NCBI RefSeq assembly: GCF_008386235.1
Contig: NZ_CP040671.1
Coordinates: 994,001-1,058,000, forward strand
DNA: 64,000 nucleotides
DNA from: Thermosynechococcus sp. CL-1
GTDB lineage: Bacteria > Cyanobacteriota > Cyanobacteriia > Thermosynechococcales > Thermosynechococcaceae
Direction of reading: 5' to 3'
The notes under the pieces: generated by a model
What the model was told of the DNA's origin: nothing
The model's database searches: none
What the model saw: only the letters and a program-made list of their open reading frames with translations
Position numbers and translations under genes: made by a program
In this document: positions 7,622-60,511 of the stretch, in pieces
How the letters are laid out: each line of letters opens with the position of its first letter
Position numbering within the stretch: position 1 is the first letter of the stretch

Positions 7622-7726
7622 GTGAAGATTGTCCGCCGGCGGCTAGTGGGTTGGCAAGCGGTCTATGACATTGGTTTAGCTGGGGATCACAATTTTCTCT
7701 TGGCCAATGGAGCGATCGCCGCCAAT
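7622..7726 (+). other. Split DnaE intein, C-terminal fragment (Int-C, 35 aa)
   Basis: This encodes the 35-residue Int-C of the naturally split DnaE intein. The penultimate-Ala/terminal-Asn end (AIAAN) with Cys as +1 extein residue is the standard succinimide and transesterification chemistry. The DHNF stretch is the conserved block F. A HIP1 palindrome GCGATCGC (7712-7719) encodes the Ala-Ile-Ala next to the splice point. Confidence 0.95.
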
Positions 7727-8980
7727 TGCTTCAACAAGTCCCACTCCACGGCCTACGGCTATGTGACCTATCAAACCGCCTTTCTCAAGGCCAACTTTCC
7801 CGTCGAGTACATGGCCGCCTTGCTCACGGCGAATAGTGGCGACCAAGACAAGGTACAGCGCTATATTGCCACTTGCCTGAGCATGGGGATTGAGGTTCTT
7901 CCCCCCGATGTGAATCGCTCGGATATTGACTTTACGCCCGTGGGGGACAAAATTCTTTTTGGTCTGTCGGCAGTGCGCAATGTCGGTCAGGGGGTGATTG
8001 AGGCCATTTTACAGGCACGGGCAGAGGGGGGCGCCTTTCAAAGTTTGGCGGATTTTTGCGAACGGGTTCCGCGTGCGGGGGGCGATAGCCGCATTCTCAA
8101 CCGTCGTGCCCTTGAATCCCTCATTGCCTGTGGTGCCATGGATAGTCTCCATCCCCAGCGCAACCGTAACCAACTGATGCAGGATCTCCCCCTTGTGCTG
8201 GAGTGGGCACAGGCGCGCGCCAAGGATCGGGCGGTGGGGCAAGTCAACCTCTTTGATATGTTGCCTAGTGGCTCCGGCAATGAATTCGGCGGTAGCTATG
8301 ACCCAGCCCCCAGTGCGCCCCCAGTTGATGATTTGCCGGATGCCGAAAAGCTCCGCCAAGAAAAAGACCTGCTGGGATTTTATGTGTCGAACCATCCCCT
8401 CAAAGATATTCACCGACCAGCGGCCATGATTGCCCCTATTAGCTTGGCGGATCTCGAGCAGTACACAGGTCAAGGGATGGTGAGTGTCATTGCCCTGCTG
8501 ACGGGACTCAAGCCCATTACCACCAAGCGCGGCGAGCGAATGGCCATTGTCCAGTTGGAAGACCTCACGGGCCAGGCAGAGGCCGTGGTTTTTCCCAAAG
8601 CCTACGAGCGGATTCATGGCCAATTGCAGCTTGATCATCGGCTACTGCTGTGGGGCACCCTAGAGATGCGCGACGATCGCCCCCAACTCCTTATTGAAGA
8701 TGCCGAACCCCTTGAAGAAGTGAAACTGGTGCTTGTGGATTTGCCTGTTGAGCAAGCGGGGGACATTCAAGCCCAAAGTCGCCTCTCGGAAGTGCTCAAA
8801 CAACAGGTGGGTGACATGCCCAAGGTGCCGGTGGTGGTCAAAGTGACCGATGGCTACCATGCCCAGTACGTGCGCCTAGGACCGCAGTTTCGCGTTGAAG
8901 ATGCCGATCGCGCCCGCCATGCCCTTACCAGTGCCGGTTTTCACGCCCAAGCCAGTGAACTGCTGAGCCTCAAGCTCTAG
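7622..8980 (+). CDS. dnaE-C: DNA polymerase III alpha subunit, C-terminal half preceded by split-intein C-fragment
   Basis: 452 residues from GTG 7622. Residues 1-35 are the C-terminal piece of the DnaE split intein, with [17 protein letters not shown] and terminal AIAAN. Cys36 (7727) is the first extein residue, followed by [20 protein letters not shown], the normal polymerase sequence. The remaining 417 residues hold the end of the catalytic region, helix-hairpin-helix part and OB-fold ([13 protein letters not shown]...). By trans-splicing, this polypeptide is joined to DnaE-N (19223-21841) to give a replicative polymerase of about 1172 residues. Its stop shares CTAG with the convergent sufS stop. 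Confidence 0.97.
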
Positions 8981-13504: not shown

Positions 13505-13948
13505 ATGCCAGCAAGCCCAATTGTTCCCGTTGCCCTTGCGGTTCTTTACCAAGGCGATCGCGTTCTCATGCAACTGCGAGATGATTATCCCCATATCTTG
13601 TATGCCGGCCACTGGGGACTTTTTGGCGGTCATCTTGAACCCGAAGAAGCACCGCTCGCGGGTGTCCAGCGGGAAGTCTATGAGGAGATTGGCTACTGCC
13701 CACCTCACCTCACCTTTTTTGGAGAGTACGGCGATCCCCAAGTGCATCGCTATATTTTCACAGGCCCTTTGACGTGTGCACTGGAAAACTTGGTACTCAA
13801 CGAAGGACAGGGCATGGACTTGGTACCCTACGATTCTGTGGTGGCTGGGGTTCACTATGCCCAAACCCTCGGCGAAGATCGCCCCTTAGGCGCCATCCAC
13901 CAGCGCATTCTGCTGGATTTCTTTGCTAGGAGAGAATCCCCCGTTTAA
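13505..13948 (+). CDS. Nudix hydrolase
   Basis: 147 residues. The Nudix box is complete: GHLEPEEAPLAGVQREVYEE followed by IGY fits Gx5Ex7REUxEExGU, which binds Mg2+ and cleaves nucleoside-diphosphate-linked substrates (X). The N-terminus (IVPVALAVLYQGDRVLMQLR) and the LFGG before the box are typical of small housecleaning Nudix enzymes. Substrate not deducible. The stop shares TTAA (13945-13948) with the convergent znuC stop. It is preceded by a long AT-rich intergenic region and is probably monocistronic. Confidence 0.9.
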   Translation: MPASPIVPVALAVLYQGDRVLMQLRDDYPHILYAGHWGLFGGHLEPEEAPLAGVQREVYEEIGYCPPHLTFFGEYGDPQVHRYIFTGPLTCALENLVLNEGQGMDLVPYDSVVAGVHYAQTLGEDRPLGAIHQRILLDFFARRESPV

Positions 13949-18727: not shown

Positions 18728-19186
18728 ATGCTGCGCCTAAATCGAAAATCCCTAATTTCAATCCTATTAAGCGTTGTTGCCATTATTTTAGTCGGCTGTG
18801 GCGGCCCCAGTGCCACGACCACCCCTCCGCCCACCTATAGTGAGTTGCAAATTACTCGCATTCAAGACTACCTGAGTGACATTGAGAAAAATGCTGAACG
18901 CTTTGCCGACCTAGAGGTCAGTGTGGCCAAAGGGGATTGGCAGGAAGCCCGCAACATTATGCGCGGCCCTCTCGGTGAAATGCTGATGGATATGCGTGCC
19001 CTCAACCGCAATCTCTTGGCAAAGGATCAACCCACCCCCACAGCTTTGACCCGTGCCCTGACGGATGACTTCCTGAAAATTGATCAGGGGGCGGATCTCA
19101 ATAGTGTCACCGTGGCTCAAGAGGGCTTCCGTGATGCTGAAGCGGACTTCAAGGCCTATCTCAATAGCTTGCCTGAGTTGTCCTAG
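18728..19186 (+). CDS. psbQ: Photosystem II extrinsic lipoprotein PsbQ (CyanoQ)
   Basis: 152 residues. Lipoprotein signal with lipobox LVGC (Cys about 24), then a Pro/Thr linker and a four-helix bundle: [54 protein letters not shown] and an acidic last helix. This is the cyanobacterial PsbQ that binds the lumenal face of photosystem II near PsbO and stabilises the Mn cluster and dimers. Start ATG 18728, about 40 bases after rqcH; it might share the rqcH transcript or have its own promoter in the rqcH end. dnaE-N begins 36 bases later. Confidence 0.93.
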
Positions 19187-19222: not shown

Positions 19223-21841
19223 ATGTCCTTCGTCGGTCTGCATATTCACAGTGATTACAGTCTTCTGGATGGTGCAAGTCAGCTTCCCGACCTAGTGGCA
19301 CGGGCAATGGAATTGGGGATGCCCGCGATCGCCCTCACGGATCACGGGGTGATGTACGGCGCCGTTGAGCTGTTAAAGTTGTGTCGCGGCAAACCCCTGA
19401 AGCCAATCATTGGCAATGAGATGTACGTCATCAATGGCGACATCACCAAGCAGGAGCGCAAACCCCGCTTTCACCAAGTGGTGCTGGCCAAAAATAAACA
19501 GGGCTACCACAACCTCTGCAAACTCACCACCATCTCCCACCTCCAGGGCTTCCAAGGCAAAGGCATTTTTGCTCGCCCCTGCATCAACAAAGAACTCTTG
19601 GCACAATACCGCGACGGACTCATTGTCACCAGTGCTTGCCTCGGCGGTGAGATTCCCCAAGCCATTTTGCAGGGTAAGCCGGATTTGGCACGCAGTGTTG
19701 CTGCTTGGTATCAAGAGACCTTTGGTGAGGATTTTTACCTTGAGATCCAAGACCACGGCAGTCAAGAGGATCGGGTGGTCAACGTTGAACTGGTGCGCAT
19801 TGGCCGCGAGTTGGGGATCAAAATTATTGCCACCAATGACTCCCACTTTATCTCCTGTAATGACGTTGAAGCCCACGACGCTCTACTTTGTATCCAGACC
19901 AACAAGCTGCTCGCCGATGAGAAGCGGATGCGCTACAGCGGTACGGAATACCTGAAATCCGCCGCTGAAATGGCTCGCCTGTTTCGGGATCACTTGCCCG
20001 CTGAGGTCATTGAAGAGGCTTTGGCGAATACCCTTGAAGTGGCCGAAAAGATTGAACCCTATAACATCTTTCGTGAACCCCAAAGTCCAGAGTTTCCGGT
20101 GCCTGCTGGTCATACAGCCGATACCTACCTAGAGCAAGTGGCGTGGCAAGGACTGTTGGAGCGATTTCACCTCAGCGATCGCCAGCAGTTGGATCCCACC
20201 TACCGGCAGCGACTGGAATATGAACTGAAAATGCTGCAACAGATGGGGTTCTCGAACTATTTCCTCGTGGTTTGGGACTACATCAAATATGCCCGCGACC
20301 ACAATATTCCCGTCGGGCCAGGGCGGGGATCGGCGGCGGGTTCCCTTGTGGCCTATGCCCTGCGCATTACCAACATTGATCCCGTACACCACGGCTTGCT
20401 CTTTGAGCGGTTTTTGAACCCGGAGCGCAAGTCCATGCCCGATATTGATACGGACTTCTGCATTGACCGCCGCGAGGAGGTGATCCAGTACGTCACCGAA
20501 AAATACGGCAGCGATCGCGTCGCCCAGATCATCACCTTCAACCGCATGACCTCAAAGGCGGTGCTCAAGGATGTGGCACGGGTGCTGGATATTCCCTATA
20601 GCCAAGCGGATCAAATGGCAAAGCTGATTCCCGTGGTGCGGGGCAAACCGGTCAAATTGGCGGTGATGATCTCCGATGACACCCCCTCGCCAGAATTCAA
20701 GGAAAAGTACGACAGTGATCCGCTGGTGCGCCGCTGGATTGATATGGCGATGCGTATTGAAGGTACCAACAAAACCTATGGCGTCCATGCGGCCGGCGTC
20801 GTCATTGCCTCAGAACCCTTGGATCAACTGGTGCCGCTGCAACGCAATAACGATGGGGCGGTGATTACCCAGTATTTCATGGAGGATCTGGAATCCCTTG
20901 GCCTCCTGAAGATGGACTTTTTGGGTCTCAAGAACCTGACAATGATCCAAAAAACGCGGGAGTTGATCCAGAAAAACCACGGTAAAACCCTTGATTTGGA
21001 TGTCCTCCCCCTCGATGATGCCAAGACTTACCAAATCCTTGCTGAAGGCAAACTGGAGGGGATCTTCCAATTGGAATCTTCGGGGATGCGCCAAATTGTT
21101 CGAGAACTGAAGCCCTCAAATTTGGAGGACATTTCCTCGGTGCTGGCACTCTATCGACCGGGACCGTTGGATGCAGGCCTGATCCCCAAATTCATTAACC
21201 GCAAGCATGGGCGGGAACCCATTCAATATCAACATGAGCTTTTGAAACCCATTTTGCAGGAAACCTACGGCGTTCTTTGTTATCAGGAGCAGATCATGCG
21301 GATGGCGCAGGACTTGGCGGGCTATTCTCTGGGTCAAGCGGATCTGCTCCGCCGCGCGATGGGCAAAAAGAAAAAAGAGGAAATGGAAAAACACGAAGCC
21401 CTCTTCATTGAGGGAGCGGCGAAAAATGGGGTGCCCAGTGCGGTGGCCCAAGAACTCTTTAAGCAGATGCTGGATTTTGCTGAATACTGTCTGAGTGGGG
21501 AGACGGCGGTGATGACGGTGGAATATGGGGCTGTCCCGATTCGCCGCTTGGTGCAGGAACAGTTGGCCTGTCAGGTCTACAGCCTTGATCCCCAAGGGCA
21601 TCTTTATACCCAGCCCATTGCCCAATGGCACTTTCAGGGCTTCCGTCCCGTGTATGAGTATGAACTTGAGGATGGCTCAACGATTTGTGCGACACCTGAT
21701 CACCGCTTTATGACCACCCGTGGCCAGATGCTGCCCATTGAGCAAATTTTTCAGGAAGGACGAGAGCTATTCCAATTCGCGATCGCCCCCAGTACGGCGC
21801 TGGCTCAAGGTCTCAAACCAGCGGTGCAGATGAGCCGCTAG
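19223..21841 (+). CDS. dnaE-N: DNA polymerase III alpha subunit, N-terminal half followed by split-intein N-fragment
   Basis: 872 residues from ATG 19223 (an upstream TTG at 19217 is less likely). It begins with the PHP domain ([15 protein letters not shown]), then the catalytic palm with FGxGS-like [16 protein letters not shown] and the metal-binding MPDIDTDFC (about residues 404-412). The extein ends at residue 755 (DFAEY); Cys756 begins a 117-residue intein fragment that runs to the stop. The product is joined in trans to DnaE-C, encoded 10.2 kb upstream on the same strand. The last 75 bases overlap the convergent tmk gene. Confidence 0.97.
21488..21838 (+). other. Split DnaE intein, N-terminal fragment (Int-N, 117 aa)
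   Basis: The fragment begins with [14 protein letters not shown] (block A, nucleophilic Cys1) and has [12 protein letters not shown] (block B with the TxxH catalytic pair). It ends [13 protein letters not shown] directly at the stop. No homing-endonuclease domain is present, as expected for the split form. Together with the 35-residue Int-C it makes a 152-residue mini-intein. Confidence 0.95.
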
Positions 21842-22480
21842 ACAATCTTGAATAGCTTCACTCACCTGATCAGTGGGTTGATCCGCCGCAATTCGCTGCC
21901 AGCGATCGCCCCCTGCCTTAGCCAAGGCCATAAATCCTTGACGAACTCGCTCATGAAAGGCCACCGCATGCTGCTCTAGGCGATCCGCTATGCCCCGCCG
22001 TTGGGTGCGGGCAAGGCCAACCTGAACCGGCAGATCCAGCCAGAGAACTAAATCCGGCATCAGTCCAGCGGTGGCAATCTGGTTGATGTGCTCGATGAGG
22101 CTCAAGTCCAGTCCCCGCCCATAGCCTTGGTAGGCAATGGTGGAAGCCGTGTAGCGATCGCACAGGACAATGCCCCCCCGTTGCAGTTGGGGGCGGATAC
22201 TCGTCGCCACGTGCTGGGCGCGATCGGCGGCATAGAGCAGGAGTTCTGCCATGGGATCAATCTCTAAATCACTATGGAGCAGCAGTTGCCGCAGGCCTTG
22301 GCCAAGGGGCGTTCCCCCCGGTTCACGGGTCAGCAGCAAGGGCGGATCAATGTCAGCGGATCGTAATTTTGCCAGCCAGCCACTTTCCTCTAGCCATGTG
22401 GTGATCGCCCCCATTTGGGTCGTTTTGCCGGCACCCTCTCCCCCCTCTAGGACAATAAACAAACCAGTGTAGGGATGCAT
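21767..22480 (-). CDS. tmk: Thymidylate kinase
   Basis: 237 residues from ATG 22480; the in-frame extension to 22531 adds 17 residues ahead of the normal kinase start and is unlikely. It phosphorylates dTMP to dTDP. P-loop [11 protein letters not shown] is near the N-terminus ([16 protein letters not shown]), the DRY-type motif [20 protein letters not shown] is in the middle and [16 protein letters not shown] follows (LID region). About 12-14 residues beyond the usual end ([12 protein letters not shown]) extend into the antisense of the DnaE intein fragment, giving a 75-base convergent overlap. Confidence 0.94.
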
Positions 22481-22536: not shown

Positions 22537-22672
22537 GCAGGTCACCTTACAATGGGGGTAATGCTCAATTCCCTGTGATTTCCTAGGAACACCAGCAGCG
22601 AGAGCGCCCCGTCTGTTCCGTGATTACACTAGAACCATTGTTCGCGAATTATTAGTTTACCACTTGGCGGTT

Positions 22673-23026
22673 ATGGCTCGATATGCTCGTGTTGTTACCA
22701 TTGCACTCCCTCGGGCACGGCTAAAGGAAGAGCTGGTGCAAACCCTAGAAGCCTGCGATTTGACGGTAACCCATGTGGGGGATGATTACGTCGTGGCACG
22801 GGAGAGCGCGCTCGATGCCATTTCAATGTCCCAACTGGTCACGGTTGAAGTCCTGATTGATAAAACCACGCCCCAAAAGGATGTCACCAAGTTTGATCTG
22901 GTGCTCAAGAATAAGGAACTGACCCTCAAGAAAAATAATCACTGCTTTGAATGGTTTGACCGTGTCAGTCGCGCCATTGCCGAAAATGAAAATTGGGAAT
23001 TAGTTAATACAGTTGCCACACTGTGA
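22673..23026 (+). CDS. Conserved-looking protein of unknown function upstream of the ThiO-like oxidase
   Basis: 117 residues from ATG 22673 (TTG 22664 is an alternative). A compact alpha/beta protein without signal or membrane segment: MARYARVVTIALPRARLKEE, then HVGDDYVVARES, a charged strand pair FDLVLKNKELTLKKNNH, and a terminal helix FDRVSRAIAENENWELV. I do not recognise the family. Its stop overlaps the GTG start of the oxidase (GTGA), so the two are translationally coupled, which suggests a shared pathway or regulation. Confidence 0.75.
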   Translation: MARYARVVTIALPRARLKEELVQTLEACDLTVTHVGDDYVVARESALDAISMSQLVTVEVLIDKTTPQKDVTKFDLVLKNKELTLKKNNHCFEWFDRVSRAIAENENWELVNTVATL

Positions 23027-42657: not shown

Positions 42658-45348
42658 ATGAGACGGATGTCGGGTCATCGGTGTTGTTTTGCGCTTCTGT
42701 TGGCGATCGCCACAACCACAGGATTTTACCAGCGGGGACTCGCACAAAATGAAGCCCAACAGTTGCGCGATATTATGCAGCGGTTGGATGCCCTACAACA
42801 GCGCTATAGTGCCGCCGTCAGTGAACTAGACGTGATTCGCAAAACCTCTTTTGGCGGCGATAGTAATCATGTCATTGTCCTCACAAATCAGATTGAGCAG
42901 TTGCAAAAACAGGGGAATTATGGCGCAGCAGTGGCACCCTCGCGGGAATTGGTGGCGATCGCTGAGCGGGTTTTAGGCTCTAATCATCCCACGGTTGCCG
43001 CAACTTTGAATAACCTTGCTGTCACCTACAAGGAACTGGGCAACTTTAGTGAGGCGATTCCCCTCTATCAGCGCAGCTTAGCCATCCGTGAACAAGCCCT
43101 TGGCGCCAATCATCCCGATGTTGCCACCAGCCTCAATAACCTCGCCAACCTCTACACCGATCAAGGCAACTACGGTGAGGCCCTGCCTCTCTATCAACGC
43201 GCCCTTGCCATCCGTGAACAAGCCCTAGGCAAAAACCATCCCGATGTGGGCTTGAGTGTGCACAACTTGGCAGTGATGTACCATTTGCAGGGCAGCCTAA
43301 CCACAGCCTTGCCCCTCTACCAGCGCAGTCTGGGTCTCCTCGAACCCGCCTTAGGGGCAGAACATCCCTTGGTGGCAACGGTGTTGAATAACCTTGCCGA
43401 ACTCTATCGTGCTCAGAGCAATTATGGCGCGGCACTACCCCTTTACCAACGCAGTTTGGCGATCCGTGAAAAGGTACTGGGGACAGATCACCCCGATGTT
43501 GCCACTAGCCTCAACAACTTGGCTGAACTCTATCGGGTACAGGGGAATTATGGGGCGGCGCTTCCCCTCTATCAACGCAGTATTGCCCTGCGGCAGCGTA
43601 CCCTCGGTGGCGAGCATCCCTATTTGGCGCTAAGTCTTGCCAATTTAGCAAAAGCCTACTGGGCGCAGGGAATGATCAACGAGGCCTTAACCGCTCTCAA
43701 CCGCGCCCTTGAGATTGAAGAGGTCAACCTCAGCCGCAACCTCGTGGTTGGTTCCGAGGAATACAAGCGCAACTATCTGGCCACGTTTCAGGACTCCACC
43801 AACACCGCCATTTCCTTCCATTTACAGGGGAATCCCCAGAATCCAGCAGTAGCCAACCTCGCCTTGACTACCATTTTGCGCCGTAAAGGTCGGTTGTTGG
43901 ATGTTTTAGCGGCAACAGCCAGTCGCCTGCGCAATCAACTGGATGCCTCGGGGCAGCAGCAACTGGATGAATTAATTCGTGTGCGAACACAGATTGCTAG
44001 CCTCACCTTTGTACGCGATCGCCCACCGCCGGCCAGCCAAATTAGCCAACTCGAACAGCGTGCCAACCAACTGGAAGCGCAACTGGTGAGCCAAAATGTC
44101 AGCTTCCGTTTAGACGTTACCCCCGTCACCCTCAGTGCGGTGCAGCAAGCGATTCCCGCCAATGCTGTGCTGTTGGAGTTTATCCAGTATGTGCCCTACA
44201 ACCCGAAAGCCAACCGCTGGGAAGCCCCCCGCTACGCCCTCTATGCCCTGAAAAATAGGGGTGCTCCCCAATGGCGTGACTTGGGTACCGTCGCTGATCT
44301 CGATACGGTCATTAAGGCAGCACGCCAGCGGATGGCGGATCCAAGATTGCCCGCTACGGTAACGAAGCCCTCTTTGAAGGCGGCCTATGAGCGCCTCTTG
44401 GCTCCTCTGGAACCCTTCCTAGCGGGCAGTACCCATCTGCTGGTGGCTCCCGACGGTCAGCTCAATACTCTCTCCTTTGAGGCCTTGGTGGATCGGCAGG
44501 ATCGCTATCTGGTGCAGTCCTATACGATCACGCTGCTCACCTCAGGACGCGACTTGCTGCGGCTGCAACAGCGGGTTAAACCCGCCAATCCCCCCTTGGT
44601 GGTGGGTAATCCCACGTTTAGTCAAGGGAGTGGTCGTGCTGTGGCAAGTAGTCAGCGGGGAGTGAACCCGCGATCGCTGGATTTGCGCAGCCTGACATTT
44701 ACGGAGTTACCCGGAACCGCCACGGAGGTGAAAACCGTAAGCACGCTCTTGCCCCAAGCGCAGATCCTCACGGGCAGCAGTGCCACCGAAACTGCCATCA
44801 AACAAACGCAGCGGCCGCGGGTACTTCACCTCGCCACCCATGGATTTTTCCTAGAGAGTCCGCCGCTATCTCCCCAAGTCCTGCAACATACCCGTGGTCT
44901 CAATGCCAATACTCCCTTTAGGGGGGAAAATCCACTGTTGCGCTCCGGCTTGGCCTTGGCGGGTTTCAATCAACGGCAGAGTGGGGTGGATGATGGCGTG
45001 TTAACGGCTTTTGAAGTCACCGGCATTAACCTTGATGGTACCGAGTTAGTGGTGATGTCCGCCTGTGATACGGGGCGCGGCGATATTCTCAATGGCGATG
45101 GTGTCTATGGCTTGCGGCGAGCCTTTACCTTGGCGGGGGCGCGTACCCAAGTGAGTTCCCTCTGGAAGGTGGATGACACCACGACCCAACAACTGATGGT
45201 TGCCTTTTATCAAAATCTAGCGGCTGGCAAGGGACGCAGTGAGGCTCTACGGCAAGCGCAGTTGCAGTTAATGAATGACCCCAGTAAGCAAATTCCCTAT
45301 TTTTGGGCTGCCTTTGTTAGCAGTGGTGAGTGGCGCCCGCTGCCCTAA
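42658..45348 (+). CDS. Exported TPR-CHAT protein (caspase-like peptidase domain)
   Basis: 896 residues. An N-terminal hydrophobic stretch (CCFALLLAIATTTGFYQRGL) looks like a signal peptide. Residues 86-350 are seven kinesin-light-chain-type TPR units of 42 residues (LPLYQRSLAIREQALG...). A helical linker follows (to about 520), then the C-terminal CHAT domain: HLATHGFF with His728 and VVMSACDTGRG with Cys803 form the caspase-like His/Cys dyad. CHAT domains are peptidases; in other systems TPR or sensor parts gate them. Substrate unknown. Stops of this gene and the convergent DUF58 gene interleave (CTAA). Confidence 0.93.
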   Translation: MRRMSGHRCCFALLLAIATTTGFYQRGLAQNEAQQLRDIMQRLDALQQRYSAAVSELDVIRKTSFGGDSNHVIVLTNQIEQLQKQGNYGAAVAPSRELVAIAERVLGSNHPTVAATLNNLAVTYKELGNFSEAIPLYQRSLAIREQALGANHPDVATSLNNLANLYTDQGNYGEALPLYQRALAIREQALGKNHPDVGLSVHNLAVMYHLQGSLTTALPLYQRSLGLLEPALGAEHPLVATVLNNLAELYRAQSNYGAALPLYQRSLAIREKVLGTDHPDVATSLNNLAELYRVQGNYGAALPLYQRSIALRQRTLGGEHPYLALSLANLAKAYWAQGMINEALTALNRALEIEEVNLSRNLVVGSEEYKRNYLATFQDSTNTAISFHLQGNPQNPAVANLALTTILRRKGRLLDVLAATASRLRNQLDASGQQQLDELIRVRTQIASLTFVRDRPPPASQISQLEQRANQLEAQLVSQNVSFRLDVTPVTLSAVQQAIPANAVLLEFIQYVPYNPKANRWEAPRYALYALKNRGAPQWRDLGTVADLDTVIKAARQRMADPRLPATVTKPSLKAAYERLLAPLEPFLAGSTHLLVAPDGQLNTLSFEALVDRQDRYLVQSYTITLLTSGRDLLRLQQRVKPANPPLVVGNPTFSQGSGRAVASSQRGVNPRSLDLRSLTFTELPGTATEVKTVSTLLPQAQILTGSSATETAIKQTQRPRVLHLATHGFFLESPPLSPQVLQHTRGLNANTPFRGENPLLRSGLALAGFNQRQSGVDDGVLTAFEVTGINLDGTELVVMSACDTGRGDILNGDGVYGLRRAFTLAGARTQVSSLWKVDDTTTQQLMVAFYQNLAAGKGRSEALRQAQLQLMNDPSKQIPYFWAAFVSSGEWRPLP
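42913..43710 (+). repeat. 126-bp tandem repeats encoding TPR units
   Basis: Six 126-base spacings from 42913 to 43669 set seven 42-codon TPR units. Neighbouring units are very similar at DNA level too (for example LPLYQRSLAIRE and HPDVATSLNNLA blocks repeat almost verbatim), which suggests recent duplication or gene conversion between units. Confidence 0.85.
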
Positions 45349-59737: not shown

Positions 59738-60511
59738 ATGATCTTCAATCGATTCTGGCGCTTCTTAGCTCCTTTAATTCCTCTCCCTAGCTTGATTCTT
59801 GGCATGTCCACAGCGCAGACGGCTCAATATCGCTTGAGTGCGCTGAAGATTGAACTGGCACCCCAAGAACCTTTTACGGTACTGGCGATCGCTAATACGG
59901 GCAATGTCCCCCTCGACTTTAAGGTGCGGGTGCAGCAGTGGCAACAGCGGGCAACGGGGGAAGATGAACTCCATCTCTTACCTGCAAATAGCCTAGAGCT
60001 AGTCGCCTTTCCCAACCTCCTGCATCTGCCCGTGGGCGGACGGGCTGAAATTCGCATTGGCCATCGCTTGCCGGCTGCTGATGTCGAGCGGACATATCGG
60101 CTTTTAGTTGCAGAAATTCCTCCAGCCCCTCAAGGAATCGGCTCAGAAACGCGCCTCGTAACGGTGCATAGCCTACCCGTATTTATCAAACCAGCGGTCA
60201 TTCGGCGGCAGGGGCAACTCCTCAATGCCCAAGTGCAGCAGGGAACCCTGCAAATGACTGTCAGTAATCGGGGCAATGTGCATATCGAGGCGGATCAAAT
60301 CACAATCAGAGGCTTGGCGGAGAATGGTCAACAGCTCTTTGAGCTGCGCCCGCAACGGGAATATGTTCTTGCAGGGGTGACGCGGCCCTTAATGCCCATG
60401 CCTTTGCCCCAAGACCAGTGTGCAGCCGTGCGAAGCCTACAGATTGTCTTGGACATTGCTGCCAATCCCCCCACCACCCAAATTGAGCGACCCACGGGGG
60501 TTTGCCGTTAG
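59738..60511 (+). CDS. Periplasmic PapD-like chaperone-type protein
   Basis: 257 residues from ATG 59738; the frame extends 9 codons into the tRNA, which cannot be coding. Signal peptide RFWRFLAPLIPLPSLILGMS, cleaved near AQ. Two beta-sandwich domains: LSALKIELAPQEPFTVLAIA with NTGNVPLDFKVRVQQWQQ, and a second with VVHSLPVFIKP-like TVHSLPVFIKPAVIRR. This is the fimbria/pilus periplasmic chaperone pattern. No usher or fimbrial subunit gene is adjacent. The stop shares TTAG (60508-60511) with the next gene's stop. Confidence 0.8.
   Translation: MIFNRFWRFLAPLIPLPSLILGMSTAQTAQYRLSALKIELAPQEPFTVLAIANTGNVPLDFKVRVQQWQQRATGEDELHLLPANSLELVAFPNLLHLPVGGRAEIRIGHRLPAADVERTYRLLVAEIPPAPQGIGSETRLVTVHSLPVFIKPAVIRRQGQLLNAQVQQGTLQMTVSNRGNVHIEADQITIRGLAENGQQLFELRPQREYVLAGVTRPLMPMPLPQDQCAAVRSLQIVLDIAANPPTTQIERPTGVCR

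Follow-up and report, generated by a model that had tools for sequence, protein, structure and literature searches.

Introduction

Long convergent overlaps, in which two genes on opposite strands end inside each other, have been surveyed in 338 genomes among overlaps of at least 60 bp. In the portion of that survey at hand, 178 overlaps were convergent, of which 124 were assigned to errors of 3'-end extension and 54 were possibly real, and most of these 54 were conserved only in very close species (PMC2478687). For E. coli, the accessible sections of a second study report that the phases of convergent overlaps fit an origin by stop-codon mutation, phase 123:321 making up 32%, and that the phases are not fully explained unless selection is invoked as well (PMC2174442). 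A third source, likewise available in part, describes convergent overlaps as made and unmade by moving stop codons (PMC4161906).

The second system that bears on the locus described here is the split DnaE intein of cyanobacteria, whose halves, Int-N and Int-C, are encoded at the end of dnaE-N and the beginning of dnaE-C. The Int-N end of a split intein is a free terminus that is excised at splicing and never becomes part of the polymerase. In the part at hand of a comparison of Thermosynechococcus strains, a split DnaE intein is given for all compared strains except one, and the words 'tmk' and 'overlap' are absent from that part (PMC9403480). Our literature search found no paper combining Thermosynechococcus with convergent overlapping genes and none joining thymidylate kinase with at least two of Thermosynechococcus, dnaE and intein.

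Here we describe a convergent overlap between dnaE-N and the thymidylate kinase gene tmk in Thermosynechococcus sp. CL-1, located within a stretch of 64,000 nucleotides of contig NZ_CP040671.1 (hereafter the window). Judged against the portions of the earlier reports at hand, it resembles the overlaps described there in that the 3' ends of two real, oppositely oriented genes coincide over more than 60 nt, one end being longer than in orthologues, in that the stops are supplied by antisense codons of the partner (PMC2478687; PMC2174442; PMC4161906), and in that conservation is confined to close species (PMC2478687). It differs from them in that the earlier surroundings of both genes, and a neighbour gene since lost, are identifiable, in that both ends have been replaced, and in that one partner is a split-intein fragment whose end is spliced away. 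The pair is a well-resolved new case of a known class of convergent overlap and overturns nothing.

Results

The ends of dnaE-N and tmk share 75 nucleotides

A sequence-only reading of the window had proposed a 75-base antisense overlap between tmk and dnaE-N at 21767-21841; its coordinates proved exact and both stop codons were confirmed (Table 1). The dnaE-N stop (TAG, 21839-21841, + strand) lies opposite Leu214 of Tmk (CTA), and the tmk stop (TAG, 21767-21769, - strand) lies opposite Leu94 of Int-N, again a CTA codon. In profile searches, dnaE-N exceeds the cut-offs for PRK09532 (DNA polymerase III alpha) and for the intein N-terminal splicing region TIGR01445, with Pfam Intein_splicing falling below its own cut-off, and the dTMP kinase match TIGR00041 stops at residue 210 of the 237 in Tmk. 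These matches, together with the genomes of relatives, identify both partners as genuine genes with orthologues. More than 60 nt are thus shared between genuine partners, and the overlap recurs beyond a single species, in all nine genomes in which the two genes are joined. Relative to orthologues the 3' end is extended for Tmk, and the Int-N tail is replaced but not longer.

Table 1. Features of the dnaE-N/tmk locus and its surroundings, in window coordinates
Feature	Positions	Strand	Description	Basis
dnaE-C with Int-C	7622..8980	+	partner of Int-N	PRK07373, intein_Cterm TIGR01443
psbQ	18728..19186	+	adjoins dnaE-N in the window and in the sisters G001 and G008	TIGR03042
dnaE-N	19223..21841	+	N-terminal part of DNA polymerase III alpha plus Int-N, TAG stop	ORF; profile matches PRK09532, polc, intein_Nterm, Pfam polymerase domains
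Int-N, N-terminal half of split DnaE intein	21488..21838	+	117 aa counted from Cys1	
tmk, thymidylate kinase	21767..22480	-	237 aa, TAG stop	PF02223 and TIGR00041 matches, both to residue 210
Convergent overlap dnaE-N/tmk	21767..21841	.	75 nt, codon-aligned antisense, phase 123:321	
New Tmk tail	21770..21811	-	residues 224-237, beyond the sister-species stop position; 224-231 a predicted helix extension	
Approximate junction zone	21797..21811	.	between dnaE-N-end-like and tmk-end-like DNA of sister species; placed by eye, uncertain by several codons	
New Int-N tail	21812..21838	+	residues 109-117, translated from the antisense of tmk codons -6 to +2 counted from W221 (Tmk residues 215-223)	
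120-aa gene	22664..23026	+	divergent from tmk; beside tmk without dnaE-N in four outgroup genomes (G001, G008, G028, G026)	no Pfam or NCBIfam match

The octamer GCGATCGC, which we take to be HIP1, occurs at 21779-21786 inside the overlap and is found there in seven of nine species. It was considered as a breakpoint and rejected: the 64-kb window holds 108 copies, and one within 75 nt is unsurprising.

Long convergent overlaps are not rare in this genome

The frequency of such arrangements was assessed in a 464-kb sample of the genome, made up of 20 sampled stretches and the window, using a rough gene call of our own. Among its 60 convergent pairs 23 overlap, 12 of them by exactly 4 nt, seven by at least 30 nt and three by at least 60 nt, dnaE-N/tmk included. 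As a class, long convergent overlaps are not rare in this genome. The other two long ones measure 149 nt (L176:10027-10175) and 65 nt (L163:11794-11858), and in both the partner on the + strand ends in a proline-rich tail. The 4-nt overlaps read CTAG, TTAG, CTAA or TTAA and lie at 8977-8980, 13945-13948, 45345-45348 and 60508-60511 of the window and at eight sampled places; one of them is formed by dnaE-C with the class-V aminotransferase gene that follows it.

The overlap is present in nine of eleven genomes of the genus

Inspection of 11 genomes of the genus reveals the convergent dnaE-N/tmk pair in nine, and in all nine the genes overlap, by 75, 81, 75, 66, 75, 75, 66, 63 and 66 nt (range 63-81). 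The remaining two, sister species G001 and G008, have dnaE-N and tmk more than 1 Mb apart. Only two length changes have occurred in the overlap zone, a gain of 6 nt in G004 and a loss of 12 nt in G002, and both leave the two frames intact. In G005, G006 and G009 the Tmk stop comes three codons earlier, as a TAA opposite an Int-N TTA. The tmk gene of G008 overlaps its own convergent neighbour, the biotin ligase gene birA, by 21 nt (L144:9770-9790).

Two blocks, separate in the sister species, have probably been brought together

The genes around the pair were compared between joined and unjoined genomes. In G001 and G008, psbQ-dnaE-N and tmk-120-aa gene form separate blocks, which make up one block in the window and in G002, G006 and G010. 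No psbQ match was seen around dnaE-N in the stretches of G028 and G026. A scan for tmk loci, which kept 80 of 585 relatives (58 cyanobacterial by title), found dnaE-N within the examined flanks at one locus, L061, which lies on the same contig as G004. A tree built from dnaE-N extein DNA groups eight joined species in a single clade, supported at 100/100 and excluding G001 and G008; the ninth joined genome, G005, was omitted, its frame being broken near the start in the assembly. This tree indicates that the join arose once.

Both sister species have an APS-kinase gene (PF01583, PRK00889) directly downstream of dnaE-N, 31-32 nt away and in the same orientation. Searching with the G008 APS kinase (cysC) returned matches in three of the 11 genomes, namely G001, G008 and G010, where the G010 matches are two copies located elsewhere that are 51-58% identical. 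No APS-kinase match was found in eight of the nine joined genomes, three of those eight (G004, G005 and G009) being drafts. The join thus appears to accompany loss of the APS-kinase gene in the clade, though not provably as one event. A reciprocal inversion found no support: the old neighbours, the APS kinase of dnaE-N and the birA of G008 tmk, do not stand side by side in the CL-1 genome. There birA is located at 2.38 Mb, beside the same 522-aa gene as in G001, and the APS kinase has no match; no reciprocal breakpoint was found. In G001, birA lies about 4.6 kb beyond the dnaE-N 3' end. Gene order within the genus is heavily shuffled.

Tmk carries a longer C-terminus in joined genomes

Tmk ends one residue after a conserved W-Y in G001 and G008, and 11-17 residues after W-F in the nine joined genomes. 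For the window this amounts to 14 residues (224-237) beyond the stop point of both sister species, in agreement with the 12-14 residues past the normal end that the sequence-only reading had estimated. That reading also held that a rearrangement had placed dnaE-N beside tmk and deprived tmk of its own stop, a view that both the shorter Tmk of the sisters and their separate neighbourhoods support.

More distant Tmks were compared by counting the residues between a fixed reference point within the protein, a conserved G-F or G-Y, and the stop. On this measure the joined Tmks have 50, 51, 51, 51, 54, 54, 54, 54 and 56 aa, 15 other family members 40-46 aa, and 55 further cyanobacterial loci 34-53 aa. 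The family set leaves out G017 (no match), G018, and G019, G022 and G023 (no clean frame); the Tmk of G018, outside the count, ends six residues after W-Y. Dropped from the further loci were 22 that are non-cyanobacterial by title, L062 and L069 as duplicates of family genomes, and L061. Six of the 55 have less than 1,500 nt downstream of tmk (L074, L075, L078, L080, L095 and L114), such that a dnaE-N neighbour is possible there.

An equally long Tmk without a dnaE-N neighbour would have spoken against the proposed link, and none was found: the 54 aa of the window are reached by none of the 70 Tmks without the arrangement in view, and four of the 70 (L076, L086, L114 and L132) fall within the lower end of the joined range, at 50-53 aa. 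The 53 aa of L086 stem mostly from a longer stretch ahead of the W, and L114 is also one of the six loci with a short downstream flank. These four suggest that growth of the Tmk end can occur in other ways. A rank test of joined against other lengths gives p 1e-6, to which we attach no weight, as it treats related genomes that share one event as independent. Since all joined genomes derive from one event, the association of tail length with the neighbour has a single origin behind it, whatever the genome count.

In the predicted structure of Tmk, the last helix spans residues 203-231, with a block-mean pLDDT of 91 for residues 221-230 and of 57 for residues 231-237. The model predicts that the tail lengthens the last helix to residue 231 and then frays.

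Int-N has exchanged its tail without growing

Translation and profile matches of the window show the usual arrangement of the cyanobacterial split DnaE intein, with an Int-N beginning at Cys1 as the end of dnaE-N, and dnaE-C beginning with Int-C, where Asn precedes the +1 Cys junction. The two halves are close together and share a strand, dnaE-C preceding dnaE-N by 10.2 kb, so that the C half comes first. The locus differs in the free C-terminus of Int-N, which is antisense tmk in the joined clade and another sequence of similar length in the sisters. In the window, Int-N residues 109-117 (LKPAVQMSR) are read from the strand opposite Tmk residues 215-223; all nine joined genomes have a tail of the form LKPxVQ, and the tails of G001 and G008 differ, ending in DILA and GILA. 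The sequence-only reading had described the two genes as ending inside each other, and its account of the Tmk half stands; it missed that dnaE-N had also lost its own stop and had its Int-N tail replaced.

Int-N lengthening, expected if both genes had simply read on, was rejected: Int-N measures 113-119 aa in the nine joined genomes against 117 and 113 aa in G001 and G008. Beyond the genus, the 13 family members in which Int-N is intact have lengths of 108-129 aa (that of G012 is truncated, and no motif was recovered from G022 or G023), and the tails vary freely across the family. Solved DnaE inteins align to Int-N only up to residue 95-105 (best E 6e-34) and solved thymidylate kinases to Tmk at most up to residue 221, so the new tails of both proteins lie outside the known folds.

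A second intein was observed in the DnaE-N of two joined species, inserted after QETYGVL (YGVL/CLAKGT...THN/CYQEQ). It measures 313 aa in G006 (L150; TIGR01445 match) and, from the length difference, about 175 aa in G004 (L061/L024). Type II inteins in nrdJ, gyrB and gmd, and no mini-intein, are reported for the compared strains in the part at hand of PMC9403480.

Proposed origin of the overlap

The sequence comparisons show four things: the overlap, its single origin, the separate neighbourhoods in the sisters and the replaced tails. As a whole they are very probably best explained by a single join in the ancestor of the nine species, which replaced both ends and left an overlap that was then tolerated. 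In this ancestor, a rearrangement would have made dnaE-N and tmk adjacent, 3' side to 3' side, with a break that took away the tmk stop together with the last codons and stop of dnaE-N, plausibly in one event. Each frame would then have run, codon against codon, into the antisense of its partner as far as a stop formed by a Leu codon of that partner (CTA or TTA). Reading on to a Leu codon of the partner fits the stop movement in G005, G006 and G009, with their TAA opposite an Int-N TTA. The overlap may have been tolerated since, as neither tail appears to touch an active part and both may be neutral; the Int-N tail in particular would sit at the free end of a split intein, where length is naturally variable and the residues are excised on splicing. 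Some of the data lean against wholly neutral tails, namely the invariant CTA and the low third-position variation described next.

Selection, transcription and other alternatives

One alternative is that the overlap is maintained by selection, with a functional Int-N or Tmk tail of antisense origin (one that aids Int-N/Int-C association or stabilises Tmk, for instance) and a DNA that codes on both strands. All nine genomes use CTA for the Leu codon that faces the dnaE-N stop, which is unmatched elsewhere in tmk: among 25 other invariant Leu columns, five keep a single codon across the nine genomes, in no case CTA. The next ten tmk codons have four variable third positions, a count as low or lower in 10 of 195 ten-codon windows outside the overlap (6 of 195 by mean pairwise third-position difference). 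The conserved LKPxVQ of the Int-N tail and the frame-preserving nature of both length changes (+6 nt in G004, -12 nt in G002) point the same way. Against this, the signal comprises only ten codons in one clade, the windows with which they are ranked overlap one another, and the tmk block just ahead of the overlap is also slightly slow (0.249 vs 0.278). Nor is the Tmk end fixed, since three of the nine species stop three codons earlier at TAA, and Int-N tails differ freely family-wide. The signs of selection on the tails are therefore hints, too weak for a claim, and we consider maintenance by selection improbable. A special form of it, in which the Int-N tail born from antisense tmk was recruited, for example for pairing with Int-C, would place a conserved kinase helix and a working intein tail on opposite strands of the same DNA. 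If this quite doubtful form held, it would have left its mark in the invariant CTA and in the slowly changing third positions.

A role in transcription, as convergent termination or antisense RNA between dnaE-N and tmk, is likewise unlikely. Convergent genes without a gap would have to terminate inside one another, which lends the idea some appeal. Against it, no terminator-like site was found within the overlap, and the folding of either strand is near that of shuffled sequence (z -0.83 and -0.35). A conserved hairpin or bidirectional terminator was rejected for the overlap on both these grounds, and the left arm of the hairpin seen in the window is, by eye, not kept in other species.

It is very unlikely that the pair is instead ancestral to the genus or family and was later split in G001, G008 and others. 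The shuffled gene order of the genus makes a loss of adjacency possible. Both genes were recovered from 16 of 18 family genomes outside the genus; 13 of these 16 carry them on different draft contigs, where adjacency is possible, and the dnaE-N of G014 stops 142 nt short of a contig edge. Weighing against this, the joined order was seen in none of the 16, and in the three with both genes on one contig (G011, G026 and G028) dnaE-N and tmk lie more than 0.5 Mb apart, as they likewise do in G001 and G008. The joined species are moreover nested and monophyletic, and in four outgroups tmk retains the 120-aa gene, not dnaE-N. A join in the ancestor of the nine is the simplest history because, within the limits of the available contigs, dnaE-N and tmk are separate in genomes outside the joined clade. 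Finally, a sequencing or gene-calling artefact in which one or both genes end before the overlap is scarcely credible: many annotated long overlaps are errors according to the available part of PMC2478687, but here nine genomes agree with differing lengths and stop codons, and stop codons are free of start-site guesswork.

Discussion

The dnaE-N/tmk locus offers a clean view of how a convergent overlap originates, with the joined and unjoined states both present within one genus. The junction is located, give or take several codons, beside the point where tmk stops in the sister species, and each new tail is recognisable as antisense of the partner gene. The locus also suggests a reason for the persistence of such an overlap: on the dnaE-N side the end is an excised, naturally variable split-intein terminus, and hence a cheap place for a break.
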